Assembly: GCF_040807025.1 (NCBI RefSeq)
Contig: NC_090946.1
Coordinates: 84,504,641 to 84,568,640 of the forward strand
Length of the DNA: 64,000 bases
Direction of reading: 5' to 3'
From: Struthio camelus
Taxonomy: Eukaryota > Chordata > Aves > Struthioniformes > Struthionidae
Shown: positions 13,610 to 59,687 of the stretch, piece after piece
Layout: each line of letters opens with the position of its first letter
Numbering within the stretch: the first letter of the stretch is position 1
Program-made: the position numbers and the translations under genes
Notes under the pieces: generated by a model
The model's input: only the letters and a program-made list of their open reading frames with translations
Databases searched by the model: none
Told to the model about the DNA's origin: nothing

Positions 13610-14160
13610 TTCGGATAACTCTGGTAGGACAGGACCGCGGAGGCCGCTGCTCAGAGGGGCCAGCTCTGCGCTCAGGCCTGGTTGCTCAGGGCTTTACTCC
13701 GTCGCCTCTCGAAAACCTCCGAGGACGGAGATCCCGCGGCCCCGCGCCGCTGCCGGCTGCCCCCGAGGGGAAAAGTTCCCCGGCTCTCGGCGCGGGCCCG
13801 GCCTCCGGCACCGCCCGGCACCGCCCGGCACCGCCCGGCACCGCCCGGCACCGCCCGGCACCGCCCGGCACCGCGGCGCGAGCCGACTCCGGCCCCGCCG
13901 CCCCGCTGCGCCGCGCGCCCCGTCCGGCGCGAGCGCTCCCGCCGCGCCGCCTGCGCCGTGCTCGCCCGGTGCCGGTGCAGCGGCCGCCCCGCTCTCGGGC
14001 CGTCCCGTCCCCGCGGCCCTGGGCGCCGCCGGCCTCGCTGCTGCCGGGCGCCCTGCGGCTCCGTGCCGCTCGCTGCCCGCCGGGCCCCGCGCCCTCCCGG
14101 GGCTGCTCCGGGCCGGCCGTTTGCAGCCTGCGTCGCTGCGGGCTGCTCGGTCTGAACTTG
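13610..14160. promoter_or_regulatory. CpG island, probable promoter
   Basis: GC content and CpG density jump abruptly at about 13,615 from AT-rich flanks and fall again near 14,160. Inside is a perfect decamer array (13,811-13,870). Several overlapping open frames span the island on both strands, the longest 13,566-14,240 plus, but they are rich in Pro, Ala and Arg, as GC-rich DNA always reads, and show no family. I see no clear splice donor, so transcription direction is undetermined. In birds such isolated islands usually mark promoters. Confidence 0.6.
13811..13870. repeat. 10-bp tandem repeat (CCGCCCGGCA)x6
   Basis: Six perfect consecutive copies of CCGCCCGGCA, flanked by partial copies (CTCCGGCA before, CCGCGG after). 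It lies inside the CpG island. A 10-bp period places each copy on the same face of the helix. Perfect identity suggests recent slippage and likely length polymorphism. Confidence 0.97.
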
Positions 14161-34842: not shown

Positions 34843-35426
34843 CCTTCCTCCCGCTGCGGGCTGCTCCCCGGCCGCGTGCACGCGCCGCGCACAACCTTGG
34901 CAAAACCCACCCCAAGACCTTTGGGAGACCAGAGCGCAGAGGCGGGCGGCGGGGCCGCCACGGGCGGGGCCGCTCCCCGGCTGCACCGGGAGCTCCCGCC
35001 GGCCCGAGGAACCCCCCCACCCCACCCCGGCCGCTCTTCTGCGGCACAGTGCCGGTCCGCACCGCAACCAGCCAGGCGGCCCGTCAGTCCTGCCTGCGGC
35101 TCACGGGGGGCAGAAGAGCGGGCCAGGGCCCAGGCAGGGCCGACGGGCGCCACGCGGCGCCGGCACCGGGCGGAAGCCGGTACCAGCCCCCGCTGCCCCG
35201 GCTCGGGGCTCGCTCCTGAGCAGCTGCATCCACGGCGGCAGGAGCGCGGAGCTGTCTCCGCCACACCCGCTGATGCCCTCGACAGAGCACTCCCCCTGCA
35301 CACGCCGGCGCCGCAGAACCGGCCGAGGCACCATCAGCAGCAGGGAGCCGAGAGGGCGGGGACGGCCACCGCTGCGCGGCGGACGGCGCCCCGACCACCA
35401 CCACGACATGCCCACCCGGCGGCTGC

Positions 35427-35670
35427 AGAGCGCATGCGTCGCCCGGACGTGCCCACACAGAGGGGTACGGCGGCCTACGGGGGGGGGGGGGGGGGGGGGG
35501 TGAGTCCAGCCACGCGTGCGTATTGCTGCCCCCGGCTGCTCACAGAGGATACGACTGCTGCAGCTCACGCATGCGCACTGCCGCCCGCCGTGCTCCCGGC
35601 TGCCCCAGGGGGTCACAAGGGACACTGCAGCCGGCGGCTCACGCATGCGCACTGTCGCCGCCGTGCTCCC
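35427..35670 (+). repeat. degenerate NRF1-type minisatellite units (promoter A)
   Basis: At least two clear units share CTGCAG, about a dozen bases, then CACGCATGCGCACTG, then GCCGTGCTCCCGGCTGCCC. The GCGCACTG cores end at 35,580 and 35,654, a spacing of 74 bp. Weaker relatives lie near 35,440 (GCGCATGCGTCG) and 35,525 (CACGCGTGCGTATTG). Element order and spacing match the 76-bp units of the array at 46-54 kb and its degenerate edge copies, so these look like unexpanded relatives of the same repeat. Confidence 0.7.
35479..35500. repeat. poly(G) run, 22 nt
   Basis: Twenty-two consecutive G lie inside CpG island A between degenerate repeat units. Such runs can form G-quadruplexes and often vary in length. 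They are also hard to sequence accurately. Confidence 0.92.
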
Positions 35671-35806
35671 GGCTGCCCGAGGGGCTCGCACACCGCCACG
35701 CTGCGGCGGCCGGCGCACGTACCGGGTGCCGCGCTTGCCGCTTCTCAGCCTGTCTTTGCTCGGCGGCTACAGGCAGAGCCGACGAAAGGCCGGCCGGGGA
35801 GGGGGG

Positions 35807-35863
35807 ATGCTGAGCGGGCGGAGGCTGCTGCTGCTGGCGGGCCGCCAGGCGCTGAGGGCAGCG
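35807..35863 (+). CDS. candidate first coding exon A, mitochondrial-leader-like
   Basis: The ATG at 35,807 is followed by 19 codons, MLSGRRLLLLAGRQALRAA, and then a donor (GCG|GTGAGC), giving a phase-0 intron. The peptide is short, Arg/Leu/Ala-rich and lacks acidic residues, as expected of a mitochondrial presequence; this is composition-based inference. NRF1-type motifs upstream fit a nuclear gene for a mitochondrial protein. It corresponds in position to the first exon of copy B (54,753-54,827), which also ends in phase 0. I do not recognise the gene. Confidence 0.4.
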
Positions 35864-36134
35864 GTGAGCGGGGCTGGAAGCGCGGTGCGGGGAGGAGAGG
35901 CGGCAGGAGAGGCAGCGTCGGCACCCGCTGCGGCAGGCAGACCGGGCCGCCTGGCGCCGAGGCCCGGCAGTGTCCGCCAAGGGGCACGTCCCTGCAGGTA
36001 GCTGTGCGCGCTCGGGTGTCTCCTACCTGCTGAGGCCATTGCCGCGTCGAGGCGGACGTGCAGGGACAGGAGGTGCACAGCAGGTAGGCCTGGTCCCTCC
36101 CGCTCTGCGCGCTGCTCTTCTATCTCGCCTTTAG

Positions 36135-36232
36135 GTCCCAGGTTCCTCCCAATGGAGGCCAGCACAAGCACGCTCATTCTTGCAGCACAGCCACTCTGGA
36201 GGTGCAGGGAGGGCAAGCAGGCCCTCCCTCAG
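36135..36232 (+). CDS. candidate second exon A
   Basis: The acceptor TCGCCTTTAG precedes 98 nt ending at a strong donor (CTCAG|GTAAGA). In phase 0 from exon 1 it is open: VPGSSQWRPAQARSF, then LQHSHSGGAGRASRPSL. Copy B exon 2 (55,024-55,162) starts GPGSSLARPGRA in the same phase, so PGSS and RP are shared. The second half (36,180-36,225) resembles the sequence around the exon at 58,947, sharing CTCTGGAGGT and GGCAAGCAGGCCC, so a module may have been duplicated here. The next possible acceptor (36,530) leads to a frame that closes after 36 codons, so the A gene may be noncoding, alternatively spliced or decayed. Confidence 0.3.
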
Positions 36233-37465
36233 GTAAGATTTTGGCATGGCATCCTCAAACAGAGCCCAAGCATGTTGCTGAGGGTGAACACTGCATGCTG
36301 GCCAGCAGACAGATGACTGAGACTGGTGTGTGGCAAAGGCTGGTCTGGGGCAGGTGCATCTGCAACCCATGCCCCTCTGCAAGAGAGCACAGAGTGGGGG
36401 CCTCACTGTAGGAGAAACTTTTCCAAAGATGGTTTTAGGAGCAAGGAAAGAAGTGCCATATAGTACTGTTGAGTTCTGTGGTTTACCCCCTGTCAAAAGA
36501 TAAGACCACCTATCCCTTTTTTTCTCGCAGGAGCTGCAGCTGGAGCAGATGCAGGTTGCTCTGGGTGGCCTTGGAAGCCTGGAAAAAGAGTTTCCTCTCA
36601 CCTCTGGTGGCTAATGCTCAGGGTCTTAGTCCTGGCTGACAGCCCAAGACATATCAGTGAGGTCAGTGCATCCCTTTGGGCTGCCAGGGACATCTGCATT
36701 TCTCTTGCCTGTTGCAGACATCACTGTCTCAAGGCAGAGATGCTGAGGAAGGCAGAAGGTGGGGTGTTTCCAGGACATCTGGCACTGCTCTGTGATGGGA
36801 ACAGCACTGCTGGGTCTGCCTCAAGGAGCTGTTTGACCTTCCCTAGTAGGGCCACAAAGTCTGTGTGAAGCCTCACCTGCCGATTTGGAGCTTTATTTTG
36901 GTCTGTTTACCTGGAATAAGCAGTAATCCCTACAGTAAGAATTTTCGTGGCTAGACGGCTAACTTGTCACCTAACCTGTCTTTGCCTTGCTTCATTTGGT
37001 CTAACTGCTTAATGTAGTAGCAATAACTTGGGAACCCAGAATAAAAACTGCTACAATGCGTAAGGAAGGATCTGCATTTGTTTAGGTTGGGGAAACACAA
37101 TTAAAGCTTTGGAAAAATGCTCAAAAATGACTCACCCATTGACCTGGGCAGCTTGATTCATTTGCAGAATAATCCTCTGAGGGCCAGCAACTCTAAGAGA
37201 AGCAGCTAAACCCGTTTTGCTGATTTTAGTGATGCTATTTTAAAAAGCATGTAAGTACAGAAGGGGTCTGGAAGGGGTAGCAAACAAGAAAGGAAGGAGT
37301 AAGAAAGGTTTGAGCGAATGGAAAAACTAAGTTCTATGACTACTGAAGTTGTTAAGGGCTGAGTGAATTGGGGGTTAGTTATGTGCATATGAAGGTCTGA
37401 AAGGGGTTAATGCATGAGGAATAGTAAAATACCGTGACTGAACACAGGGTTCCTCCCCAGTCTGA
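36233..37465. other. probable intron of copy A
   Basis: No repeat family recognised. A pyrimidine-rich acceptor (CCCTTTTTTTCTCGCAG) ends at 36,530 and could start an exon, but no frame continues convincingly. The rest is ordinary noncoding sequence. Confidence 0.4.
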
Positions 37466-38163
37466 GCCCGTGGGTGCACCTTCGCCCTTGCAGACACAGA
37501 CACTCTGGAGATGTAGGGATACAGGCAAGCAGGCCCACAAGTGGACTTTGGGCACAGGGCTTTGCAGAGAGTTCTGCGTGCTCAGCAGGTGAGTGGAACT
37601 GGAGCATGTTAAGGGCTGTTCTGGGCTGTCTGGATCCATCTGATTCCACTCACTGTCCCTCTGTCCAGCTTTCCATCTTTCTCTTTCTTTCCCCGTAGTT
37701 CTGTTTGGTACCCCCTCCCTTTGTTTAGCTACTCATTCTTGCCTAGCTTCCCATCCCCCTTGTACTCTTTGCATCCCTCTGTCAATATCTGCATCCCTCC
37801 GACTGGCTCCCTATCGCTCTGTCCAGCTCTCCATCATCCTCTTCCTCTCCTGATCCAACTACTCGCCCGCTGTCCCTCTGTCTGGCTCCCCATCCCTCCG
37901 CCGCTCTCTGCCGCTCTTGTTTGTCTCTACGCCTTTCCAGCCCTCTGTCCACCTCTCCAGCCTTCTCTTTCTATTTCTGTCCCTCTGTTCAGCTCCCCAT
38001 CCATCTATTTGTCTCCCTATCCCTCTTTTCCCCTGTTCCATCTCATCTCTCTGTCTGACTTCCCCTCCCTCTTTTTTTCTCTCTCCACCTTTCTGGCTGG
38101 CTCTTCGCTTTGACTGGCTCCCTGTCCCTCTCTTGCAGTCCCCATTCCTCTGTCTGGTTCTCT
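37466..38163 (+). repeat. duplicated block A (exon-like part plus pyrimidine minisatellite)
   Basis: About 700 bp closely matches 58,918-59,687 in the same orientation, starting at CCCGTGGGTGCACC and ending at CTCTGTCTGGTTCTC. It begins with the exon-like segment CTTGCAG|ACACAGACACTCTGG. Compared with the other copy, about 55 nt are missing between two AAGTGG direct repeats, which shortens the exon-like part to 95 nt and shifts its frame; the CAG|GTGAGT donor is kept. The remainder is a pyrimidine-strand minisatellite of CCCTCTGTCCAGCTCCCCAT-like units. Confidence 0.9.
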
Positions 38164-40648
38164 GGGGGAAGAGGGTAGGAGAACCCAAGAGTTTCAGAAC
38201 ACTATTCTGTTGAATCTGTCAGCGTGTTTGATCTGTGCATGTGTGAATGAGATGCATCTGTATCATTGACATGGGTCATTAATTCCTAACTGCTGACTTG
38301 GAGCGATGCTTGAGAGGTCATACCAGAACCTCAGTTGCTTCTAGGCGTTCATAAAGTTTGGGAAGCCTGTAGAACAAGCTTCTGATTTCATCTTGGCTTT
38401 ATACAGTTCTGAGGCCTACATTTACACAAGCCACCGACCACCCCTTTTAGGTATGGTCTGAGTTATAGGGTCTGTAGATGTTTTATCCATTTTTTTTCTT
38501 AACTCCATGCATCTTGCTGAGTGGAGTCAGGGGAGTAGCCAGCCTGTCAGCCTATCCATTAGGGCTCTTTTGGGGAACAAATCACTCTTTGGCTTATCTG
38601 CTGGCCAGCCCTTGAGAAGCTTTGGCATATGAGCCTTACAGTTCTCTCTGAGCACAGTCAATACCTTTTCCTCTCAGCCTTTTCTTACAGTGACTATGTT
38701 TCAGCTCTACCTCAGGAACTCATTCATTCTTGTATGTGTGGCTTTTTTGGGGGTGACATTTAGCCTGACACTGGGGTTACAGTTATGAATATTGTCCATA
38801 TCCAGCAATACCTCAATTCTGTACAGTTTTCTGGTCTTTTTTTCCCTATCAATCTGTGTGTCATGGTTTATAGGTGTCTTACCTTACAACGTGGCTAAAA
38901 TATAATGATTAATAATTCAATAACACAGATAATTAACTTCACAAGCAGGTACATAATAAGGTTGAAAACGTAGTTCCCCATTGGCTGCCATCCCTTAACC
39001 AGTGCACAATTCAGTGAGCTATTCTGCCTGCGATACCATCCTCATTGGTTCCCCTGCTCATCAAGTATTTTTCCAGTTGTTTCTTGAAGAAGAGGTACAT
39101 TTCGTACATTGATTATTGGGTAAATTAGATAATTTTTGTGGTACGCATACAAACACAGCTGTATCTCACAAACAGTTACAGACTGGTCAGAAATCAATGG
39201 AACAAGTTCATGGTCACACTTGATGAAATCACGATTTAGTCTTTGAAGCCTGAAAACTTATCTTCATGTATCTAATACATATTTTGCTCTGCTGCTTGCC
39301 AGCTGTATGAGACCACTGAAAACATTCCACATTGTACACCCAGGAAGTGCTTGTGCTCTTGTTGGGTTCTTGCCGAGCACTACCTGCAGGGGCTATGCTG
39401 TGCTATTGAGCCCTTCCCCACCTTTTTGATGAGGGATACTTGCAATTGATATTAGCAGACGTGATTGTTCGCATAGCTTCCGATTCATTCTTTTTCTTGG
39501 AACTCCTTTTTCTTCTGCTGTTCTGGTTCCTCTCTCCCTGAAGTCAGCAGGTTCCGGTAGTGTTCGTATTCTCAGGGCAAAAGTCTTTCACAACTCATAT
39601 TTTAGAGATGTGATTGTTACACTTGGGATTTTCCTCTCAGGAGTTACTGCATGTGCCAATAGCTAGTTACAGAAATAGCTGTGCTATAGCAGAGAGGTGT
39701 GGTTGCGTAACACAGTAATACCACACTCGTACTTGTAGCACGATTATTGGACAAAATAGCAACAAATCTGGTGGTGTAGAACTGAAAGATGGTTGTTTCC
39801 ATTACAAAGTGCTAAATGCAGGTTTTGATATGTGCTGTTACGCACCTAAGTCCAGGTCCGAGGGGATGTGCAGAAAAGCAAGTTCCTTTTTGTTGAGTGG
39901 GATTTTTCAACCTCAAAGAGGTTCCTTTTTGCAAAGATACTGCATACTTTTTATAGACTTAAGAAGATGGTTCTCAGATTAAACGGCTTATTTGCAGTGA
40001 TCAGTATCTGCGGCTATTTTTCCAAAACAGGAATATTGGAGCTGTGTAATTTTACAGTTCACTAGTCATCTCAGTAACAGAAATACTTTTGTCATCAAAT
40101 TAGTATGGGAGTACACATTGTGCACGTGTGGTGTTTTGCGATGCCCATAATTGAGGAACCTCTATCTTCTGCTGTGTGTAAATTTCTGCTCCTCCCAGGG
40201 CAAGGCTGTATTGAAATTCCAATACTGAAAAGCTGTACACAGTCCGTTCAAGTACGGTGTGCTGTGGGAGGCTTTTCTAGACTTAAATGATTTACCTGGG
40301 CTTCTCATAGTTCTCAGAGATGTAAGTATATTTTGTAAGTATGTGAAATTATAGCTTTCCCTATATGTGCAGTTTTCATGTTACGTGTGGAGATGCTGCT
40401 TTGTATGCTGGTGATCTGTTAATTACCATAGCCAGTAATATGCTACTGCCCAGGAGGGATATATATCATTAGCGAGAGAAACAAGGTTTCTCTTGCTTGG
40501 AGGTGGAGGCAATTGGATCAATTGCTTGCCTCTGATCTCTTGGTTTGTCTACATTTTACTCTTCTCCAGCCTCAGGAGTTCATCTTAGAAGAAAGTATTA
40601 CATCTTCTCCTTTTGAGATATATCTATCTATATCTATCTATCTATCTA

Positions 40649-44989: not shown

Positions 44990-45358
44990 TGGTGGGCAGA
45001 ACTACGGAAAAAGAGGTGCGAGAGTATCGGAGCCTTAAAACGGACTGGACGGGACAGGATTTAAGGTCAGTTTGTGTACAGTGCACAAGTAGTGCGACCC
45101 CAGGATCATTGTACGGGTACTGTAACTGGGGAAACAGCATGCTGACAGAAGAAGAAAGGTTAAATCTTTGGGTGAAATAAAGGGTCCTTCCCATCAATCC
45201 TGAGTAAGAGGGTCGCATTTCTTAGAGCGGCGTATCCATCACTGTTGTGGTAGCAGCAGAGCACCGCAGTGGGAGGTTCTGGAAAGGAGTCAGGAGCAGA
45301 ACTGGCAGGAGGCTCTTTTCCCTGTCCGGATGGAAAAACGGCTGTAAGCACGCTTGCC
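44990..45358 (+). mobile_element. endogenous retrovirus pol fragment 1 (RT thumb region)
   Basis: Plus-strand relic. The frame from 44,989 to 45,180 includes YGYCNWGNSMLTEEERLNLW, which has the layout of the retroviral reverse transcriptase segment just after the palm (a G-Y-x-x-x-x-G block followed by an L-T-x-E-E-R block). After a stop, the part from about 45,235 to 45,358 aligns with 57,605-57,720 of fragment 3 (both contain GGAAAGGAGTCAGGA and CGGCTGTAA). There is an internal deletion where the RNase H linker should begin. Stops and deletions make it non-functional. It ends exactly where CpG-rich domain B begins. The group is uncertain, most like gamma- or epsilon-type pol. Confidence 0.7.
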
Positions 45359-46014
45359 AGAAACCGAGGAGGCCGAGGCCGAGGCCGAGGCCCGGCTGGG
45401 GCCCTTGCCTTGGGCCCTGACTGCGGGCACCCGGCGCGCCCTGCCGCCCGAGGCCTGCTCGCCCCAGGTGCGACTGCCACCGCCACCACCCCTCGGCGCT
45501 GCTGCGCCCCGGTGCTGCGCCGCCGCCGGGACACGGGGTGCTCGTGAGGTCCCCGCCACCGTCTCCTCCTGCAGGACACAGGTGCCCAGGGGGGACGGTA
45601 CGAAAGGGTCGGGGCGGCCCGACCGGAGGGGTCGCGGGGGCCGCTATGCCAGCGGGGTCGCGCACGCGCACTGGGTCAGACCGGCTCGCGGCTGCCCTCG
45701 GGCGGGAGCGGTAGCCGACTGCGGCAAGCGGAGTGGCGCATGCGGATTGGGGGGCGACCCGCTTACTCCCTGCTGCCCTCAAGTGACTACGAACCGGTAC
45801 TGCAGGCAGGGGATTAACGCATGCGCACTGCTCCAGATGTGCTCCATGCTGCCCTCGGGTGATGCCACCCCAATAGTGCAGCCAGCCGACGAACGCATGC
45901 GTCCTGGACGCATCGGTTCCTTGGTGCCCCTCGAGCGCGGCCCACCGCTACGAGCAGCAAGTACTGCAGGCAGCCGCTGTGCCCATGCGCACTTGCTCGG
46001 CGTGGTCGGATGGG
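45359..46014 (+). promoter_or_regulatory. left edge of CpG domain B with degenerate repeat units
   Basis: CpG-rich, beginning with four GAGGCC copies (about 45,367-45,393). From about 45,655 it contains degenerate relatives of the array unit: GCGCACGCGCACTGGG, GGCGCATGCGGATTG, AACGCATGCGCACTG, AACGCATGCGTCCTG and CCCATGCGCACTTG. Most are preceded by a TGCAG-like block and followed by TGCTGCCCTC(A/G). Spacing is about 60-80 bp. These look like old, diverged copies at the edge of a homogenised array. An open frame running rightwards from 45,354 into the array is compositional. Confidence 0.7.
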
Positions 46015-49000
46015 GAGAAGTCAGTACTGCAGGAGAAGCGGGGCGCAGGCGCAGTGGTTTCGGCGTGGCTCGTTGGTGCCCTCGGCTGGCGAAAGTACGG
46101 TACTGCAGGCGAAGCGGGGCGCATGCGCAGTGGTTTCGGCGTGGCTCGCTGGTGCCCTCGGCTGGCCAGAAATCGGTACTGCAGGCGAAGCGGGGCGCAG
46201 GCGCAGTGGTTTCGGCGAGGCTCGTTGGTGCCCTCGGCTGGCGAAAATTCGGTACTGCAGCCCGAAAAATCGGTACAGCAGGCGAAGCGGGGCGCAGGCG
46301 CAGTGGTTTCGGCGTGGCTCGTTGGTGCCCTCGGCTGGCCAGAAATCGGTACTGCAGGCGAAGCGGGGCGCATGCGCAGTGGTTTCGGCGTGGCTCGTTG
46401 GTGCCCTCGGCTGGCGAAAGTACGGTACTGCAGGCGAAGCGGGGCGCATGCGCAGTGGTTTCGGCGTGGCTCGCTGGTGCCCTCGGCTGGCCAGAAATCG
46501 GTACTGCAGGCGAAGCGGGGCGCAGGCGCAGTGGTTTCGGCGAGGCTCGTTGGTGCCCTCGGCTGGCGAAAATTCGGTACTGCAGCCCGAAAAATCGGTA
46601 CAGCAGGCGAAGCGGGGCGCAGGCGCAGTGGTTTCGGCGTGGCTCGTTGGTGCCCTCGGCTGGCCAGAAATCGGTACAGCAGGCGAAGCGGGGCGCAGGC
46701 GCAGTGGTTTCGGCGTGGCTCGTTGGTGCCCTCGGCTGGCCAGAAATCGGTACTGCAGGCGAAGCGGGGCGCAGGCGCAGTGGTTTCGGCGTGGCTCGTT
46801 GGTGCCCTCGGCTGGCGAAAAATCGGTACTGCAGCCCGAAAAATCGGTACAGCAGGCGAAGCGGGGCACATGCGCAGTGGTTTCGGCGTGGCTCGTTGGT
46901 GCCCTCGACTGGCGAAAATTCGGTACTGCAGGCGAAGCGGGGCGCAGGCGCAGTGGTTTCGGCGTGGCTCGTTGGTGCCCTCGGCTGGCCAGAAATCGGT
47001 ACTGCAGCCGAAGCGGGGCGCAGGCGCAGTGGTTTCGGCGTGGCTCGTTGGTGCCCTCGGCTGGCCAGAAATCGGTACTGCAGGCGAAGCGGGGCGCAGG
47101 CGCAGTGGTTTCGGCGTGGCTCGTTGGTGCCCTCGGCTGGCGAGAATTCGGTACAGCAGGCGAAGCGGGGCGCAGGCGCAGTGGTTTCGGCGTGGCTCGT
47201 TGGTGCCCTCGGCTGGCCAGAAATCGGTACAGCAGGCGAAGCGGGGCGCAGGCGCAGTGGTTTCGGCGTGGCTCGTTGGTGCCCTCGGCTGGCGAAAATT
47301 CGGTACAGCAGGCGAAGCGGGGCGCATGCGCAGTGGTTTCGGCGAGGCTCGTTGGTGCCCTCGGCTGGCGAAAATTCGGTACTGCAGCCCGAAAAATCGG
47401 TACTGCAGGCGAAGCGGGGCGCATGCGCAGTGGTTTCGGCGTGGCTCGTTGGTGCCCTCGGCTGGCGAAAATTCGGTACTGCAGGCGAAGCGGGGCGCAG
47501 GCGCAGTGGTTTCGGCGTGGCTCGTTGGTGCCCTCGGCTGGCCAGAAATCGGTACTGCAGGCGAAGCGGGGCGCAGGCGCAGTGGTTTCGGCGTGGCTCG
47601 TTGGTGCCCTCGGCTGGCCAGAAATCGGTACTGCAGGCGAAGCGGGGCGCAGGCGCAGTGGTTTCGGCGTGACTCGTTGGTGCCCTCGGCTGGCGAAAAT
47701 TCGGTACTGCAGGCGAAGCGGGGCGCAGGCGCAGTGGTTTCGGCGTGGCTCGTTGGTGCCCTCGGCTGGCGAAAATTCGGTACTGCAGGCGAAGCGGGGC
47801 GCAGGCGCAGTGGTTTCGGCGTGGCTCGTTGGTGCCCTCGGCTGGCGAGAATTCGGTACTGCAGGCGAAGCGGGGCGCAGGCGCAGTGGTTTCGGCGTGG
47901 CTCGTTGGTGCCCTCGGCTGGCCAGAAATCGGTACTGCAGGCGAAGCGGGGCGCAGGCGCAGTGGTTTCGGCGTGGCTCGTTGGTGCCCTCGGCTGGCCA
48001 GAAATCGGTACTGCAGGCGAAGCGGGGCGCAGGCGCAGTGGTTTCGGCGAGGCTCGTTGGTGCCCTCGGCTGGCGAAAATTCGGTACTGCAGGCGAAGCG
48101 GGGCGCAGGCGCAGTGGTTTCGGCGTGGCTCGTTGGTGCCCTCGGCTGGCGAAAATTCGGTACTGCAGCCCGAAAAATCGGTACTGCAGGCGAAGCGGGG
48201 CGCAGGCGCAGTGGTTTCGGCGAGGCTCGTTGGTGCCCTCGGCTGGCCAGAAATCGGTACTGCAGCCGAAGCGGGGCGCATGCGCAGTGGTTTCGGCGTG
48301 GCTCGTTGGTGCCCTCGACTGGCGAAAAATCGGTACAGCAGGCGAAGCGGGGCGCATGCGCAGTGGTTTCGGCGTGGCTCGTTGGTGCCCTCGGCTGGCC
48401 AGAAATCGGTACTGCAGGCGAAGCGGGGCGCAGGCGCAGTGGTTTCGGCGAGGCTCGTTGGTGCCCTCGGCTGGCGAAAATTCGGTACTGCAGCCCGAAA
48501 AATCGGTACTGCAGGCGAAGCGGGGCGCATGCGCAGTGGTTTCGGCGTGGCTCGTTGGTGCCCTCGGCTGGCCAGAAATCGGTACTGCAGCCCGAAAAAT
48601 CGGTACTGCAGGCGAAGCGGGGCGCAGGCGCAGTGGTTTCGGCGTGGCTCGTTGGTGCCCTCGGCTGGCCAGAAATCGGTACTGCAGGCGAAGCGGGGCG
48701 CAGGCGCAGTGGTTTCGGCGTGGCTCGTTGGTGCCCTCGGCTGGAGAAAATTCAGTACTGCAGCCGAATCGGGGCGCAGGCGCAGTGGTTTCGGCGTGGC
48801 TCGTTGGTGCCCTCGGCTGGCGAAAATTCGGTACTGCAGGCGAAGCGGGGCGCAGGCGCAGTGGTTTCGGCGTGGCTCGTTGGTGCCCTCGGCTGGCGAA
48901 AATTCGGTACAGCAGGCGAAGCGGGGCGCAGGCGCAGTGGTTTCGGCGTGGCTCGTTGGTGCCCTCGGCTGGCGAGAAATCGGTACTGCAGGCGAAGCGG

Positions 49001-52000
49001 GGCGCATGCGCAGTGGTTTCGGCGTGGCTCGTTGGTGCCCTCGGCTGGCCAGAAATCGGTACTGCAGGCGAAGCGGGGCGCAGGCGCAGTGGTTTCGGCG
49101 TGGCTCGTTGGTGCCCTCGGCTGGCGAAAATTCGGTACTGCAGCCCGAAAAATCGGTACTGCAGCCGAATCGGGGCGCAGGCGCAGTGGTTTCGGCGAGG
49201 CTCGTTGGTGCCCTCGGCTGGCGAAAATCGGTACTGCAGGCGAAGCGGGGCGCAGGCGCAGTGGTTTCGGCGTGGCTCGTTGGTGCCCTCGGCTGGCGAA
49301 AATCGGTACAGCAGGCGAAGCGGGGCGCATGCGCAGTGGTTTCGGCGAGGCTCGTTGGTGCCCTCGACTGGCGAAAAATCGGTACTGCAGGCGAAGCGGG
49401 GCGCAGGCGCAGTGGTTTCGGCGTGGCTCGTTGGTGCCCTCGGCTGGCCAGAAATCGGTACTGCAGGCGAAGCGGGGCGCAGGCGCAGTGGTTTCGGCGT
49501 GGCTCGTTGGTGCCCTCGGCTGGCGAAAATTCGGTACTGCAGCCCGAAAAATCGATACTGCAGCCGAAGCGGGGCGCAGGCGCAGTGGTTTCGGCGAGGC
49601 TCGTTGGTGCCCTCGGCTGGCGAGAAATCGGTACTGCAGCCGAAGCGGGGCGCAGGCGCAGTGGTTTCGGCGTGGCTCGTTGGTGCCCTCGGCTGGCGAA
49701 AATTCAGTACTGCAGCCGAAGCGGGGCGCATGCGCAGTGGTTTCGGCGTGGCTCGCTGGTGCCCTCGGCTGGCCAGAAATCGGTACTGCAGGCGAAGCGG
49801 GGCGCAGGCGCAGTGGTTTCGGCGTGGCTCGTTGGTGCCCTCGGCTGGCCAGAAATCGGTACTGCAGCCCGAAAAATCGGTACTGCAGGCGAAGCCGGGC
49901 GCATGCGCAGTGGCTTCGGCGTGGCTCGTTGGTGCCCTCGGCTGGCGAAAAATCGGTACAGCAGGCGAAGCGGGGCGCAGGCGCAGTGGTTTCGGCGTGG
50001 CTCGTTGGTGCCCTCGGCTGGCGAAAATTCGGTACTGCAGCCCGAAAAATCGATACTGCAGCCGAAGCGGGGCGCAGGCGCAGTGGTTTCGGCGAGGCTC
50101 GTTGGTGCCCTCGGCTGGCGAGAAATCGGTACTGCAGCCGAAGCGGGGCGCAGGCGCAGTGGTTTCGGCGTGGCTCGTTGGTGCCCTCGGCTGGCGAAAA
50201 TTCAGTACTGCAGCCGAAGCGGGGCGCATGCGCAGTGGTTTCGGCGTGGCTCGCTGGTGCCCTCGGCTGGCCAGAAATCGGTACTGCAGGCGAAGCGGGG
50301 CGCAGGCGCAGTGGTTTCGGCGTGGCTCGTTGGTGCCCTCGGCTGGCCAGAAATCGGTACTGCAGCCGAAGCGGGGCGCAGGCGCAGTGGTTTCGGCGTG
50401 GCTCGTTGGTGCCCTCGGCTGGCGAAAATTCGGTACTGCAGGCGAAGCGGGGCGCAGGCGCAGTGGTTTCGGCGTGGCTCGTTGGTGCCCTCGGCTGGCC
50501 AGAAATCGGTACTGCAGGCGAAGCGGGGCGCAGGCGCAGTGGTTTCGGCGTGGCTCGTTGGTGCCCTCGGCTGGCCAGAAATCGGTACTGCAGGCAAAGC
50601 GGGGCGCAGGCGCAGTGGTTTCGGCGTGGCTCGTTGGTGCCCTCGGCTGGCGAAAATTCGGTACTGCAGCCCGAAAAATCGATACTGCAGCCGAAGCGGG
50701 GCGCAGGCGCAGTGGTTTCGGCGAGGCTCGTTGGTGCCCTCGGCTGGCGAGAAATCGGTACTGCAGCCGAAGCGGGGCGCAGGCGCAGTGGTTTCGGCGT
50801 GGCTCGTTGGTGCCCTCGGCTGGCGAAAATTCAGTACTGCAGCCGAAGCGGGGCGCATGCGCAGTGGTTTCGGCGTGGCTCGTTGGTGCCCTCGGCTGGC
50901 CAGAAATCGGTACTGCAGGCGAAGCGGGGCGCAGGCGCAGTGGTTTCGGCGTGGCTCGTTGGTGCCCTCGGCTGGCCAGAAATCGGTACTGCAGCCGAAG
51001 CGGGGCGCAGGCGCAGTGGTTTCGGCGTGGCTCGTTGGTGCCCTCGGCTGGCGAAAATTCGGTACTGCAGGCGAAGCGGGGCGCAGGCGCAGTGGTTTCG
51101 GCGTGGCTCGTTGGTGCCCTCGGCTGGCCAGAAATCGGTACTGCAGGCGAAGCGGGGCGCAGGCGCAGTGGTTTCGGCGTGGCTCGTTGGTGCCCTCGGC
51201 TGGCGAAAATTCGGTACTGCAGCCGAAGCGGGGCGCAGGCGCAGTGGTTTCGGCGTGGCTCGTTGGTGCCCTCGGCTGGCGAAAAATCGGTACAGCAGGC
51301 GAAGCGGGGCGCAGGCGCAGTGGTTTCGGCGTGGCTCGTTGGTGCCCTCGGCTGGCCAGAAATCGGTACTGCAGGCGAAGCGGGGCGCAGGCGCAGTGGT
51401 TTCGGCGAGGCTCGTGGGTGCCCTCGGCTGGCGAAAATTCGGTACTGCAGGCGAAGCGGGGCGCAGGCGCAGTGGTTTCGGCGTGGCTCGTTGGTGCCCT
51501 CGGCTGGCGAAAATTCGGTACTACAGCCCGAAAAATCGGTACTGCAGGCGAAGCGGGGCGCAGGCGCAGTGGTTTCGGCGTGGCTCGTGGGTGCCCTCGA
51601 CTGGCGAAAGTGCGGTACTGCAGGCGAAGCGGGGCGCATGCGCAGTGGTTTCGGCGTGGCTCGTTGGTGCCCTCGGCTGGCGAAAAATCGGTACTGCAGG
51701 CGAAGCGCGGCGCATGCGCAGTGGTTTCGGCGAGGCTCGTTGGTGCCCTCGGCTGGCGAAAATTCGGTACTGCAGGCGAAGCGGGGCGCAGGCGCAGTGG
51801 TTTCGGCGAGGCTCGTTGGTGCCCTCGGCTGGCCAGAAATCGGTACTGCAGGCGAAGCGGGGCGCAGGCGCAGTGGTTTCGGCGTGGCTCGTTGGTGCCC
51901 TCGGCTGGCGAGAATTCGGTACTGCAGCCGAAGCGGGGCGCAGGCGCAGTGGTTTCGGCGTGGCTCGTTGGTGCCCTCGGCTGGCGAAAATTCGGTACTG

Positions 52001-54034
52001 CAGGCGAAGCGGGGCGCAGGCGCAGTGGTTTCGGCGTGGCTCGTTGGTGCCCTCGGCTGGCGAAAATTCGGTACAGCAGGCGAAGCGGGGCGCAGGCGCA
52101 GTGGTTTCGGCGTGGCTCGTTGGTGCCCTCGGCTGGCCAGAAATCGGTACTGCAGGCGAAGCGGGGCGCATGCGCAGTGGTTTCGGCGTGGCTCGTTGGT
52201 GCCCTCGGCTGGCGAGAATTCGGTACTGCAGGCGAAGCGGGGCGCAGGCGCAGTGGTTTCGGCGTGGCTCGTTGGTGCCCTCGGCTGGCGAAAAGTTGGT
52301 ACTGCAGGCGAAGCGGGGCGCAGGCGCAGTGGTTTCGGCGAGGCTCGTTGGTGCCCTCGGCTGGCGAAAATCGGTACTGCAGGCGAAGCGGGGCGCAGGC
52401 GCAGTGGTTTCGGCGTGGCTCGTTGGTGCCCTCGGCTGGCGAAAATCGGTACTGCAGGCGAAGCGGGGCGCATGCGCAGTGGTTTCGGCGAGGCTCGTTG
52501 GTGCCCTCGGCTGGCGAAAAATCGGTACTGCAGGCGAAGCGGGGCGCAGGCGCAGTGGTTTCGGCGTGGCTCGTTGGTGCCCTCGGCTGGCGAAAAATCG
52601 GTACAGCAGGCGAAGCGGGGCGCATGCGCAGTGGTTTCGGCGTGGCTCGTTGGTGCCCTCGGCTGGCGAAAATTCGGTACTGCAGCCGAAGCGGGGCGCA
52701 GGCGCAGTGGTTTCGGCGAGGCTCGTTGGTGCCCTCGGCTGGCGAAAAATCGGTACTGCAGGCGAAGCGGGGCGCAGGCGCAGTGGTTTCGGCGTGGCTC
52801 GTTGGTGCCCTCGGCTGGCGAAAATTCGGTACTGCAGGCGAAGCGGGGCGCAGGCGCAGTGGTTTCGGCGTGGCTCGTTGGTGCCCTGGGCTGGCGAAAA
52901 TCGGTACTGCAGGCGAAGCGGGGCGCAGGCGCAGTGGTTTCGGCGTGGCTCGTTGGTGCCCTCGGCTGGCGAAAGTACGGTACTGCAGGCGAAGCGGGGC
53001 GCAGGCGCAGTGGTTTCGGCGTGGCTCGCTGGTGCCCTTGGCTGGCCAGAAATCGGTACTGCAGGCGAAGCGGGGCGCAGGCGCAGTGGTTTCGGCGTGG
53101 CTCGTTGGTGCCCTCGGCTGGCGAAAGTTCAGTACTGCAGCCGAATCGAGGCGCAGGCGCAGTGGTTTCGGCGTGGCTCGTTGGTGCCCTCGGCTGGCGA
53201 AGATTCGGTACTGCAGGCGAAGCGGGGCGCAGGCGCAGTGGTTTCGGCGTGGCTCGTTGGTGCCCTCGGCTGGCGAAAATTCAGTACTGCAGCCGAATCG
53301 AGGCGCAGGCGCAGTGGTTTCGGCGTGGCTCGTTGGTGCCCTCGGCTGGCGAAAATTCGGTACTGCAGGCGAAGCGGGGCGCAGGCGCAGTGGTTTCGGC
53401 GTGGCTCGTTGGTGCCCTTGGCTGGCCAGAAATCGGTACTGCAGGCGAAGCGGGGCGCAGGCGCAGTGGTTTCGGCGTGGCTCGTTGGTGCCCTCGGCTG
53501 GCTAAAGTACGGTACTGCAGGCGAAGCGGGGCGCAGGCGCAGTGGTTTCGGCGTGGCTCGTTGGTGCCCTCGGCTGGCGAAAATTCGGTACTGCAGGCGA
53601 AGCGGGGCGCAGGCGCAGTGGTTTCGGCGTGGCTCGTTGGTGCCCTCGGCTGGCGAGAATTCGGTACTGCAGCCGAATCGAGGCGCAGGCGCAGTGGTTT
53701 CGGCGTGGCTCGTTGGTGCCCTTGGCTGGCCAGAAATCGGTACTGCAGGCGAAGCGGGGCGCAGGCGCAGTGGTTTCGGCGTAGCTCGTTGGTGCCCTCG
53801 GCTGGCTAAGAATCGGTACTGCAGGCGAAGCGGGGCGCATGCGCAGTGGTTTCGGCGTAGCTCGTTGGTGCCCTCGGCTGGCGAAAAATCGGTACTGCAG
53901 GCGAAGCGGGGCGCATGCGCAGTGGTTTCGGCGTGGCTCGTTGGTGCCCTCGGCTGGCGAAGATTCGGTACTGCAGGCGAAGCGGGGCGCAGGCGCAGTG
54001 GTTTCGGCGTGGCTCGTTGGTGCCCTCGGCTGGC
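46015..54034 (+). repeat. NRF1-motif satellite: about 102 tandem units of 76 bp
   Basis: The unit has, in order: GAAAATTCGGTACTGCAG, GCGAAGCGGG, GCGCAGGCGCAGTGG, TTTCGGCGTGGCTCG and TTGGTGCCCTCGGCTGGC. Most units are exactly 76 bp (for example starts at 46,015, 46,091, 46,167 and 46,243). Thirteen are 97 bp through a 21-bp insert that duplicates the TCGGTACTGCAG part after CCCGAAAA, and a few are 75 bp. About twenty units read GCGCATGCGC instead of GCGCAGGCGC, which gives the palindromic NRF1 core. Recurrent alternative bases (GGCGTGG/GGCGAGG, TACTGC/TACAGC, CAGGCG/CAGCCG) are shuffled among units. About nine CpGs per unit survive with few C-to-T losses. No stop trinucleotide occurs in the consensus on either strand, so frames of over 2,000 codons exist on both strands; because 76 is not a multiple of 3, each frame cycles through three readings of the unit. 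I do not regard these as genes. Confidence 0.98.
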
Positions 54035-54752
54035 CAGATATCGGTAGTGCAGCGGTAAGGCGCTCGCATGGGCGCTCGGTTTCCCCTGCTCACTGCTGCC
54101 CTCCGGTGTCGACACGCCACTTCTGCAGCCGCCACTGCCCTCGCCGGCGTACGGAGAATACTGCAGCCAGCCGGCGCGCACCCGCCCAGTGCCGGTCACC
54201 GTGTTCGCCCCTACTCTGCCCTGTTTGGGTAACGGGTAAGCGAAGGGGCCGTGCTCCTCGCCCCTTCCCCGTGCTCATAGACCCGTAGCGCAGAGTGCTT
54301 TTCCGTACTGGTGCTTCCTTCCTGTTGTCGCGGGGACGGGCAGTGCCGTCTCGGCGCTGCTCCGCGGTGCCCTCACACCGGTGCAGCAGCGGAGCCCGCT
54401 CGCTGATCCCCACCGGGCTCTCGGGCACGGACCGAGCAGCCCCGGGGCGCCCGCCGCTGAGCGCGAGCCCCGCGGGGCCGCGGCGGGGGCGGCGGGCTGC
54501 AGCCCCGCGCCGGGAACACGCGGGGGCGCCGTTCCCCGCCTGGCCCCCCTCCCGCTCCCCCTCTCGCCCCCTCCCCTCCCTCCGTCCCTCCCACTCCCCT
54601 CCTCGCCCCTCCCCTCCCCTCCCCTCCCCTACCGCTCGGGGCGGAGCCGGCGCATGCGCGGTGCTCGAGAGCCGGGCCCCCGGCGCTGCCGCGCCCCGTT
54701 CTCGGGCGGCGCATGCGCGGCGGGCGGCGCATGCGCGGCGGCGGGGAGCAGC
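54035..54752 (+). promoter_or_regulatory. CpG-island promoter B with three NRF1-type sites
   Basis: After the last regular unit (54,034) come diverged relatives (GGTAGTGCAGCGG, CACTGCTGCCCTCC, GAATACTGCAGCC) up to about 54,215. Then follows a GC-rich island with a homopyrimidine tract (54,544-54,630) and three copies of GGCGCATGCGCGG at about 54,649, 54,708 and 54,726, the last ending about 14 bases before the candidate ATG at 54,753. NRF1 sites in this position are typical of nuclear housekeeping and mitochondrial-protein genes. No TATA box is seen. The array sits immediately upstream, so it may act as part of this promoter. Confidence 0.7.
54544..54630. repeat. homopyrimidine tract in promoter B
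   Basis: Nearly pure C/T on the plus strand for about 87 bases, including four CCCCT-type pentamer copies near 54,606-54,630. The complementary G-rich strand could form G-quadruplex or triplex structures just upstream of the NRF1 sites. Confidence 0.85.
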
Positions 54753-54827
54753 ATGGCGGCGCGCAGGGACGGAGTTTTCGCTGGGGCGGCGGCCGCCCGG
54801 AGTCGGGGATGCGGGGGCTCCGGTGAG
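54753..54827 (+). CDS. candidate first coding exon B
   Basis: The ATG has a strong Kozak context (GCAGCATGG). Twenty-five codons, starting MAARRDGVFAGAAAARSR and ending GSGE, run to a donor (GAG|GTGAGC), phase 0. It is Arg/Ala-rich with few acidic residues at the start, compatible with an organelle-targeting leader but not diagnostic. Position relative to the NRF1 sites and phase parallel candidate exon A at 35,807. An alternative donor four bases earlier (CCG|GTGAGG) would change the phase. Confidence 0.45.
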
Positions 54828-55023
54828 GTGAGCGCGTCTCTTCGGGTGGCCGCGGGTGTCAGGCGGTCTCCTGCCCGCTGGGGCCGTCGCTGCGTGGAGG
54901 CGGAGGTGCGGGGCGAGGTTTGGGGAGGGGGCTCGGGCCTGGTGCCGCGCCGCGCCGGCAGCGCGGCCCAGGGTCTGCCGGGAGCGCGGGTTTGACCGTC
55001 CGTTTGCCGCGTGTCGCCCTCAG

Positions 55024-55162
55024 GGCCCCGGTTCCTCCCTGGCGAGGCCGGGGCGGGCGCTCGCCCCTGCGGAGGCGGCCGGGAGGAGCGGCGAGGCTGG
55101 CGGGCCCCGGAGCGGCGTTGGGCCGACGGCTCCCGTCGCGGCTGGCTTGCCCGAGGGTGCTG
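55024..55162 (+). CDS. candidate second exon B
   Basis: The acceptor CGTGTCGCCCTCAG precedes 139 nt closed by a very strong donor (GCTG|GTAAGT). In phase from exon 1 it is open: GPGSSLARPGRALAPAEAA at the start and LPEGAG at the junction. It matches copy A exon 2 over its first dozen codons (PGSS, RP). Low complexity suggests leader or linker sequence. About five bases past the donor, retroviral fragment 2 begins, so the intron was invaded or the gene was truncated there. Confidence 0.4.
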
Positions 55163-57359: not shown

Positions 57360-58116
57360 AGTTTCCGAAGAGGAAGTGAGAGTGAGAGAGAAGTATCTGA
57401 ATTGTAAAATTAAGAGGTGAATTTCAGGAAGGCTCAATTGGTGCAACCCCAGGTTCCTGATATGGCAATGGTATTTGGGGAAACAGGAATAGAGTAGCTA
57501 GAAAAAAGGTTAAAGCCTTATGAAATTAAGACTCTTTCTTGTCAGTTCCAACTTTAGGGCAATTTTAGGAGGATTTAATTTCCTCCGGCAGTGTTAATAT
57601 AACTTGCGTGGTATCAGCAGACCATGGTGGGAATTACAGGAAAGGAGTCAGGAATGGAGCTGGAACAAGGAACATGATGTTGCTTTCACTAAACTGAAAG
57701 AAGCGGCTGTAAAATCTCCTGCCCTCAAATTCCCAGGACAAGGCAAGCCTTTTTCAGTAAGGATTCCCACATCTACTGATTTCGTGGGAGCAGCGCTGCT
57801 GCAAAAGAGCAGTAGAGGGAAAGTGGGTGCCAGTGGCATCATCCTTACATCCCCTTTGAGGCCCGAACAGAAACTCTCTGGCTGTGAGAAAGACTGTTTA
57901 GAAGCAATCTGGGCTGTAACTGTCTTTGAGACTTTTACCTTTTATCAGCCCAGATGCAGCCCAATCTGCTCAATTCCCTCTAAACTAGCTCATGTCAGGG
58001 AAATAAATAGGCAGCAGAGTATCCTCTGTCTAAGTGGGACAGTGGGCACTGATCTTAACAAGGGGGGAGTTACAGTGCAAGTGTACCAAGAAGCAGATCA
58101 TCTTCTGTGCATCTGA
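57360..58116 (+). mobile_element. endogenous retrovirus pol fragment 3 (RT thumb to RNase H)
   Basis: The first part (57,360-57,600) matches fragments 1 and 2 and contains several stops. From 57,604 a 170-codon open stretch shows the reverse transcriptase C-terminus and the start of RNase H in order: WNKEHDVAFTKLKEA (the W-x-x-E-H-x-x-A-F-x-x-L-K block), SPALKFP, GKPFSV, GAALLQ, then GCEKDCLEAIWAV (the E-K-D-C-L-x-A-x-W-A-V block). Similarity fades after FETFTF at about 57,945. Upstream catalytic RT and downstream RNase H and integrase are absent, so it is a dead fragment. It is the longest of three related plus-strand pieces and is most like gamma- or epsilon-type pol. Confidence 0.85.
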
Positions 58117-58865: not shown

Positions 58866-58917
58866 GTGAGTAATAAGCCACAATTCATGGACCAGCCAAG
58901 GAGAGAGGGGAATAGTG

Positions 58918-59687
58918 GGCCCGTGGGTGCACCCTCGCTCTTGCAGACACAGACACTCTGGAGGTATAGGGATACAGGCAAGCAGGCCCACAAGTGGCCT
59001 CCACGTGCCTTTCGGTGTGGCTGCGGGTCCTCCGCACAGCAGTGCCCAAGTGGACTTTGGGCCCAGCGGTACACAGAGAGCTCTGCAGCTCAGCAGGTGA
59101 GTGGAACTGGAGCGGGTTGAGGGCTGTTCTGGGCTGTCTGGATCCATCTGGTTCCACTCGCTGTCCCTCTGTCCAGCGCTCCATCTTTTTCTTTCTTTCC
59201 CCGTAGCTCTGTCCGATACCCCGTCCCTTTGTTTAGCTACTCATTGCCCTGCCCAGTTCCCCATCCCTCTGGTACTCTTTGCATCCCTCTGTCAATATCT
59301 TCCTCCCTCCGAGTGGCTCCCTGTCGCTCTGTCCAGCTCTCCATCATCCTTTTCCCCTCTCTGTCCCACTACCCGCCCGCTGTTCCTCTGTCCAGCTCCC
59401 CATCCCTCTGCTGCTCTTGTCTGTCTCTTTGTACCTTTCCAGCCTTCTGTCCCCCTCTCCAGCCTTCTCTTTCTATTTCTGTCCTTCTGTTCAGCTCCCC
59501 ATCCATCTATTTGTATCCCTATCCCTCTTTTCCCCTCTTCTATCTCATCTCTCTGTCTGACTTCCCCTCTCTCTTTTTTTTCTCTCCACCTTTCTGGTTG
59601 GCTCTTCATCCTTCTCACTCTCTTCCCATTGGTCTGACTGGCTCCCTTTCCCTCTCTTCCAGTCCCCGTTCCTCTGTCTGGTTCTCC
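58918..59687 (+). repeat. duplicated block B (exon-like part plus pyrimidine minisatellite)
   Basis: Close direct-orientation copy of 37,466-38,163, about 21.5 kb apart. It keeps the full 150-nt exon-like segment. The minisatellite half consists of CCCTCTGTCCAGCTCCCCATCC-like units. Open frames through it (59,101-59,637 and 59,229-60,158 plus; 59,292-59,618 and 59,615-59,917 minus) are repeat translations. Confidence 0.92.
58947..59096 (+). CDS. candidate fourth exon B
   Basis: The acceptor CTCGCTCTTGCAG precedes exactly 150 nt ending at an optimal donor (CAG|GTGAGT). In phase 0 from exon 3 it is open: TQTLWRYRDTGKQAHKWP, then QRYTESSAAQQ. Phase 0 at both ends and length divisible by three are consistent with a cassette exon. 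The preceding interval of 81 nt is also open in this frame, so it may be a tiny intron or retained. The paralogous segment at 37,488-37,582 keeps both splice sites but has a 95-nt length that breaks the frame. Confidence 0.4.

Follow-up and report, generated by a model that had tools for sequence, protein, structure and literature searches.

An 8-kb satellite with an NRF1-type site in nearly every unit near a probable CpG-rich start in Struthio camelus

Known bird satellites include a repeat of 41–42 bp, which differs in length from the 76-bp repeat described here, and the W-linked XhoI and EcoRI families. The best-described tandem array of homotypic transcription-factor sites that we found is repressed by MORC3 and acts as an enhancer only upon MORC3 loss, as reported in PMC13373173. 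In human spermatogonia, NRF1 sites are reported to be among the most insertion-prone (7.0-fold, above PRDM9), and the insertions at these sites often duplicate the motif (PMC8559717). Here we describe a satellite that combines tandem repetition with NRF1-type sites, within a window (the whole stretch of DNA that was analysed) of 64,000 nucleotides.

The array was delimited with Tandem Repeats Finder and its units were counted directly from an anchor, and both confirmed an earlier description of an 8-kb satellite of about 102 units of 76 bp. The spacing of the units was 76 bp in 83 cases, 97 bp in 13 and 75 bp in five, with the last unit completing the count; the 97-bp units consist of 76 bp plus a 21-bp insert, and the 75-bp units are one base short. 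With 76-bp units in 102 copies, the array falls within the definition of satellite DNA given in PMC4992247 (unit >60 bp, >50 units). Multi-unit blocks are repeated within it, as runs of 6, 5 and 4 units with 1, 2 and 1 mismatches, respectively. The mean divergence between units by lag showed merely a shallow dip at 5–6 units, from which we claim no regular higher-order period, and no quadruplexes were found in the array on either strand by a simple G3 rule. Long GC-rich arrays are generally difficult to assemble, and the repeat could have been wrongly expanded or collapsed. Such an artefact is extremely unlikely in view of the 64 distinct unit sequences among the 102, the absence of any N from the window and the presence of a diverged left fringe, although the copy number in the assembly may still be off.

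The NRF1 consensus has been given as GCGCNTGCGC (PMC10810270). The core of the majority unit, GCGCAGGCGC, reads GCGCCTGCGC on the minus strand, which fits this consensus exactly and is identical over ten bases to the TFAM site of humans. In the luciferase assays of PMC10810270, a functional site was provided by GCGCCTGCGC from the TFAM promoter; the binding constants given in its passages cover the AT-centred palindrome and variants, the CT-centred form not being among those. An exact GCGCNTGCGC was found on one strand or the other in 101 of the 102 units. The majority core occurs 80 times in the window, every copy inside the array, and the palindrome GCGCATGCGC occurs 24 times, 21 of them in the array and three at the probable promoter (Table 1). 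Four exact sites lie outside the array within the window, namely one in a fringe unit and three just before a probable ATG. The earlier note was therefore right in claiming an NRF1-type site in practically every unit, the palindrome in about twenty of them and three further sites at the promoter; its match to NRF1 stands as such, but the fit of 11 of 12 positions was too low, the majority core also being exact on the minus strand. As copies of one another, the units count as a single independent event, a site present in one unit; when the consensus unit was shuffled 20,000 times with its dinucleotides preserved, 367 shuffles had such a site (about 2%). The array is probably active as a homotypic cluster of NRF1 sites and, if NRF1 occupies it, would be the largest such cluster to our knowledge. 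A role as a large NRF1 sink, which had also been proposed, is unlikely, because one locus adds 101 sites to the fewer than 10,000 reported for human spermatogonia (PMC8559717), an increase of the order of one to a few percent if such arrays are not numerous. The alternative proposal, an extreme enhancer-like promoter, is a possible reading.

Table 1. Positions of the array, its diverged relatives and the two probable starts in the window
Feature	Position	Strand	Remarks
Three to four diverged units, not expanded	35423..35704	+	three aligned, one by eye
Paralogous downstream block	35807..38165	+	probable paralogous start ATG 35807
Old left fringe, five strongly diverged units	45641..46023	+	same phase and strand as array
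Homogenised satellite array	46006..54052	+	102 units of 76 bp; exact NRF1 consensus site in 101/102
Possible decayed right fringe	54043..54200	+	one aligned unit 54043-54118, then fragments
Probable core promoter	54640..54760	+	palindromic NRF1 sites at 54650, 54709, 54727
Probable first exon	ATG 54753, possible donor GT 54823	+	by eye
Possible second exon	about 55024-55162	+	by eye; feature span with first exon 54753..55162

The array had further been placed directly upstream of a CpG-island promoter. A CpG-rich probable start with more NRF1 sites is indeed found there, but it is separated from the array, as about 0.7 kb lies between the array end and the probable ATG. We infer that the CpG-rich region before this ATG is a promoter. 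Its three NRF1 sites begin 103, 44 and 26 bp ahead of the ATG, and the latter two are held by an 18-bp tandem duplication at 54703–54741.

The CpG observed/expected ratio was 1.13–1.21 over the array in 1-kb steps, against a median of 0.23 outside 46001–55000. In the array, C>T or G>A changes were found in 12 of 2040 cells at CpG and in 13 of 3162 at other G/C sites. With the effect of methylation on CpG transitions taken as tenfold, far more of these changes at CpG would be expected than were seen. The array has the sequence features of a CpG island, with a high CpG observed/expected ratio and CpG transitions in no marked excess, and germline methylation seems to have spared it. Openness of the array, at least in the germ line, is suggested by the absence of CpG decay. 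Such openness argues against a homotypic cluster kept repressed in the MORC3/DAXX/H3.3 manner, silent until released, and NRF1 occurs 0 times in the main text of PMC13373173. The same source reports that tandem repeats of 20–192 bp units with up to 61 like motifs are less accessible under MORC3, and that the reduction in accessibility is correlated with motif number, as would suit a cluster of this kind; on balance, we consider this explanation quite improbable.

The array seems to form the young middle part of a more ancient minisatellite. The left fringe carries one exact NRF1 site, at 45660, and was recovered in a profile search of the window with E=0.02 for a single-unit model and E=1.6e-07 for a two-unit model. 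On the right, the first ten bases of the one aligned unit belong to the array end, and the local alignment score of 54053–54260 (37) was not above the best of 100 shuffles (39); none of four other stretches scored against shuffles for unit likeness passed. The diverged units upstream of the probable paralogous start at 35 kb were detected by nucleotide self-comparison (E=1.2e-08) and missed by the unit profile, and their local alignment score of 52 was barely above the best of 100 shuffles (50). Within the paralogous block, 35861–36070 resembles 54717–54918 at 64%, and 37463–38162 resembles 58916–59686 at 80%, part of this second stretch being a pyrimidine-rich tract. The diverged fringe and the probable paralogous start appear to reveal the origin of the array.

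Among nine diverged fringe units, pairwise identity is 86% in the 9-bp NRF1 core and 49% elsewhere, and no other 9-column window of their alignment scores as high; this alignment was made with MAFFT and may be anchored by the core, a bias that star-tree simulations control partly. Among simulated neutral sets near the observed divergence, 4 of 600 had any window as conserved as the core (0 of 200 at an overall identity of 0.525, 1 of 200 at 0.549 and 3 of 200 at 0.573, the observed identity being about 0.547), and none of 450 more diverged sets reached this level. An exact NRF1 site is present in one of the nine aligned fringe units, compared with 101 of the 102 array units; the improvement of the site from fringe to array may be a single event, because one unit was amplified. 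The 7-mer most shared in the fringe is GCTGCCC, in 7 of 11 segments, and NRF1 may therefore not be the sole factor. Within the young array, one of nine fixed columns of the core is variable, compared with 25 of 66 columns elsewhere in the unit, so the core is not significantly more conserved there (Fisher p=0.15). This last result would suit neutral satellite drift, in which a CpG-island minisatellite grew by unequal exchange with the NRF1 site as a chance passenger, and so would the block duplications and the frequency of such sites among shuffled units. Against it speak the conserved core of the old fringe units, seen at two places, the lack of CpG decay across 8 kb and the 18-bp duplication around NRF1 motifs adjoining the array, and we regard neutral drift as rather unlikely.

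Growth driven by recombination was also considered. In birds, which lack PRDM9, recombination is reported to take place near transcription start sites and CpG islands (PMC5519329), and meiotic breaks at CpG-island promoters together with GC-biased conversion could have enlarged the repeat, NRF1 being incidental or only opening the chromatin. The array does sit at a place like a CpG island or transcription start site and has a GC content of about 66%, and the commonest change in the core, judged against the fringe units, is T to G. Growth of this kind would not, however, account for the conserved fringe core or for expansion at only one of two paralogous starts, and the absence of PRDM9 from this genome is presumed. 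We hold this account to be improbable; it overlaps with the one that we favour and does not exclude it.

The open frames in the array reach 2648 codons, because the consensus unit is free of stops in all six frames, as were 469 of 20,000 shuffles. The unit lengths of 76 and 97 bp are both 1 mod 3, so that each frame runs through all three. No frame is singled out as that of a coding repeat. A Pfam search of 299 ORFs, each running from stop to stop over 55 codons or more (149 + 150), gave no match at 0.01; this set comprised 297 ORFs minus a retroelement ORF, plus three long ORFs at the right end, and excluded the array, low-entropy ORFs and the regions at 34.8–35.7, 37.6–38.15, 45.0–54.06, 54.2–54.74 and 59.1–60.0 kb. 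The ORFs neighbouring the probable exon frames of the 54-kb start likewise had no Pfam match, those exon frames themselves, including the probable first-exon frames, lying outside the scanned set; nor did 10 of 13 shorter exon-like ORFs downstream match at 0.05. The only named domain in the window was a reverse-transcriptase RNase H fragment, and Rfam gave nothing in the window at gathering scores. An 11-base motif of the CR1 3' end had three matches, all on the minus strand of the window and none on the other, which weakly supports a source among birds or other sauropsids; longer forms of this motif, of which two were compared, matched nowhere in the window.

The explanation that we favour, and hold to be about evenly poised between right and wrong, is a promoter minisatellite kept open in the germ line by its NRF1 sites, which also promoted its tandem duplication, in line with what is reported for NRF1 sites of human spermatogonia. 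An old promoter-proximal NRF1 minisatellite at a duplicated locus would have been blown up beside one of two paralogous starts. In the germ line, NRF1 would bind both the array and the sites of the promoter, so that the DNA would stay open and unmethylated; germline DNA bound in this way would often break or be misrepaired, giving tandem duplicates of the motif, and the array would then be enlarged and homogenised as blocks of several units were exchanged unequally. The resulting very long NRF1-dependent CpG island would set the activity of the downstream start, either by activation or by repression of the sort known from other homotypic tandem repeats. We infer the occupancy by NRF1, the growth driven by breaks and any effect on transcription. 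The 18-bp tandem duplication of the NRF1 motif in the adjoining promoter, a separate event, supports this explanation; the 21-bp insertion, which sits outside the core, and the size of the published duplications (5–20 bp rather than 76 bp; PMC8559717) stand against it. More speculatively, and rather unlikely in our view, the satellite may have been made by the transcription factor itself: germline binding of NRF1 would keep the array open and also break it, each repair would copy the motif, and this cycle would have taken a promoter minisatellite, perhaps four to eight units long, to more than 100 perfect sites. If true, such a history would mark the far extreme of the motif duplication that human spermatogonia show as single insertions. 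Should NRF1 occupy the array, it would offer a natural test of whether satellites can be built by a factor bound to germline DNA and of how a promoter responds to a hundred identical sites rather than three, with the paralogous start some 19 kb off, which did not expand, as a built-in control.

Among the matches listed, mainly from the open-access literature, we found no bird satellite of this kind and no NRF1 tandem array. The small satellite families of chicken chromosome arms share a unit above 60 bp and more than 50 copies with the array; the strings "76 bp" and "76-bp" are absent from the main text of that report, and its passages make no link to NRF1 (PMC4992247). The enhancer-like VNTR upstream of IFNAR1 likewise places a cluster of factor sites, tandemly repeated, ahead of a gene, but it has a 32-bp core with a Foxg1-like motif and is human and somatically variable (PMC3762855). 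The closest known kind of array appears to be the homotypic-motif tandem repeats such as IFNB1-MRE. The array shares with the MORC3-restricted class a VNTR-size unit (20–192 bp) and dense motifs for a single factor, and its near-identical core units lie beside diverged ones as in IFNB1-MRE, where seven are >95% and three about 80% alike. The described members carry PU.1/SPI, AP-1 or SP/KLF motifs, up to 61 of them, and are mammalian, with the MREs lying in a Focad intron, whereas the array has 101 NRF1 motifs and lies beside a CpG-rich start in a bird (PMC13373173). The NRF1 insertions of human spermatogonia measure 5–20 bp, in contrast to the 76-bp units in about a hundred copies in this bird; the 18-bp duplication in the promoter is of the right size for them, and both they and the array would represent tandem copies of the NRF1 motif at germline-active sites (PMC8559717).

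The array is organized head to tail, and a direct count gave 83 units of 76 bp, 13 of 97 bp and five of 75 bp, in addition to the last unit. The 97-bp units, confined to the left two thirds of the array (units 3 to 69), share a 21-bp insert, placed where adjoining units meet and altered by 1 base in a single copy. The mean pairwise divergence among the units was 5.2%, with 64 distinct sequences. Runs of 6, 5, and 4 units recurred at offsets of 8, 14, and 6 with 1, 2, and 1 mismatches, respectively, a pattern expected from block duplication or unequal exchange; no regular higher-order periodicity was evident in the array. The 21-bp insert (13 units, 46207-51473) corresponds to two helical turns at 10.5 bp per turn, and the 76- and 97-bp steps to 7.24 and 9.24 turns, so that the step length would not alter the helical phase of one putative NRF1 site relative to the next. 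None of the six frames of the consensus unit contains a stop codon, and both unit lengths (76 and 97) leave a remainder of 1 on division by 3, so that open frames reach up to 2648 codons. GC skew is positive throughout (about 0.2 to 0.26, 46001-54000), and R-loops would be favoured if + strand transcription crosses the array.

A sequence scan with the NRF1 consensus reported in PMC10810270, GCGCNTGCGC, found an exact match in 101 of the 102 units, closer than the 11 of 12 positions that the earlier note claimed for the palindrome. The majority core, GCGCAGGCGC, occurred in 80 units, and its minus strand is exactly the site GCGCCTGCGC described for the human TFAM promoter (PMC10810270). The palindrome GCGCATGCGC, estimated in about twenty units, was counted in 21, and one further unit departs. 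Only four exact matches lie elsewhere in the window, and three of these are the sites that the note had placed at the adjoining, probable promoter, where an 18-bp tandem duplication contains two of them. No exact match was present in the GC-rich stretches at 13.0-16.5, 34.7-36.3, and 62.8-64.0 kb; the 35-kb units, within the second, carry sites one base off the consensus. A perfect 10-bp minisatellite, CCGGCACCGC, lies in seven copies at 13805-13874, another CpG-rich stretch. An exact site was present in 367 of 20,000 dinucleotide-shuffled units; thus, a founder unit with one such site would be unusual, not extreme, and its hundred copies in the array are not independent.

Features of the array locus and related segments
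Feature	Position	Strand	Detail
Head-to-tail satellite array	46006-54052	+	102 units
Left fringe, diverged units in the array's phase and strand	45641-46023	+	profile and local alignment
Diverged units of the array repeat	35423-35704	+	upstream of probable start 35807
Exact NRF1-type site	45660		left fringe unit
Three exact NRF1-type sites	54650, 54709, 54727		just upstream of probable ATG 54753
RNase H domain of reverse transcriptase, stop-free 172-codon fragment	57598-58113	+	PF17919, E=6.8e-13

Old, diverged copies of the unit lie to the left of the array, where a two-unit profile gave E=1.6e-07 and the local score was 154 (shuffle maximum 47); the 35-kb units scored 52 against a maximum of 50, and the right fringe was weak (37 against 39). 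Nucleotide self-comparison aligned 35552-35719 with 45716-45895 (65% identical, E=1.2e-08). The sequences downstream of both starts are also related (35861-36070 and 54717-54918, 64%), and 37463-38162 and 58916-59686 share 80% identical blocks as part of the duplicated locus, partly in a pyrimidine-rich, internally repeated tract. Taken together, these data suggest that both paralogous starts once carried a small, older minisatellite, a few units long and with NRF1 sites, and that it expanded at one of them. The reverse transcriptase fragment is, by its domain match, a retroelement remnant; beside it, 57415-57670 is similar (63%) to a segment left of the array, 45064-45312. An 11-base CR1 3'-end motif had three matches (4355, 14705, and 16999), all of them on the minus strand, whereas no match to either of two longer forms was present in the window; this is weakly consistent with a bird or another sauropsid as the source.

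Nine fringe units were aligned, of which five came from the left fringe, three from 35 kb, and one from the right, and pairwise identity in the 9-bp NRF1-type core was 86%, the highest of all windows, as compared with 49% elsewhere. Among unconstrained units simulated on a star tree, this level was reached in none of 450 more diverged sets and in 4 of 600 other sets, including 1 of the 200 at matched overall identity. Independently of alignment, the most shared 8-mer was CGCATGCG (6 of 11 segments) and the most shared 7-mer was GCTGCCC (7 of 11), the latter indicating a second conserved element in the fringe units. This second stretch reads GCTGCCC(TC) in the diverged units (45641-46023, 35423-35704). 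One fringe core matched the consensus exactly, six were one base off and two were two bases off; three contained ACGCATGCGC, and an oligonucleotide matching it is reported to bind about fourfold more weakly than the palindrome (1.27 versus 0.31 uM; PMC10810270). The perfect site of the amplified unit, against mostly imperfect fringe cores, may reflect one event and alone proves nothing. Inside the young array, conservation was not significantly higher in the core than in the rest of the unit, which would argue against present selection unless the array is too young to tell.

The CpG observed/expected ratio, in 1-kb steps, was 1.13-1.21 in the array, as compared with a median of 0.23 outside 46001-55000. 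With a tenfold effect of methylation, about 84 CpG departures would be expected; at CpG, 12 of 2040 cells showed a C>T or G>A departure, as did 13 of 3162 at other G/C positions. Array cells are not independent, and column counts, used as a check (5 of 20 versus 5 of 31), were still far from tenfold. One CpG of the unit was lost in 34 units through a transversion, which is not methylation-type decay. The array accumulated 5% divergence but no CpG decay, which makes it likely that it is unmethylated in germ cells.

NRF1 sites are described as among the most insertion-prone in human spermatogonia, the motif often being duplicated by insertion (PMC8559717), and birds are reported to lack PRDM9 and to recombine near promoters and CpG islands (PMC5519329). 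From these findings together, we infer a route that goes beyond the sequence: in germ cells, NRF1 would make the site accessible, its duplication would follow from breakage and repair, and the added sites would keep the locus open. As for the earlier suggestion of a large NRF1 sink, one locus is unlikely to be a sink of global importance. For the gene, the output of the array may be activation or repression. Repression is reported for IFNB1-MRE, a tandem repeat that likewise holds many sites of one factor (45 PU.1 sites; PMC13373173).
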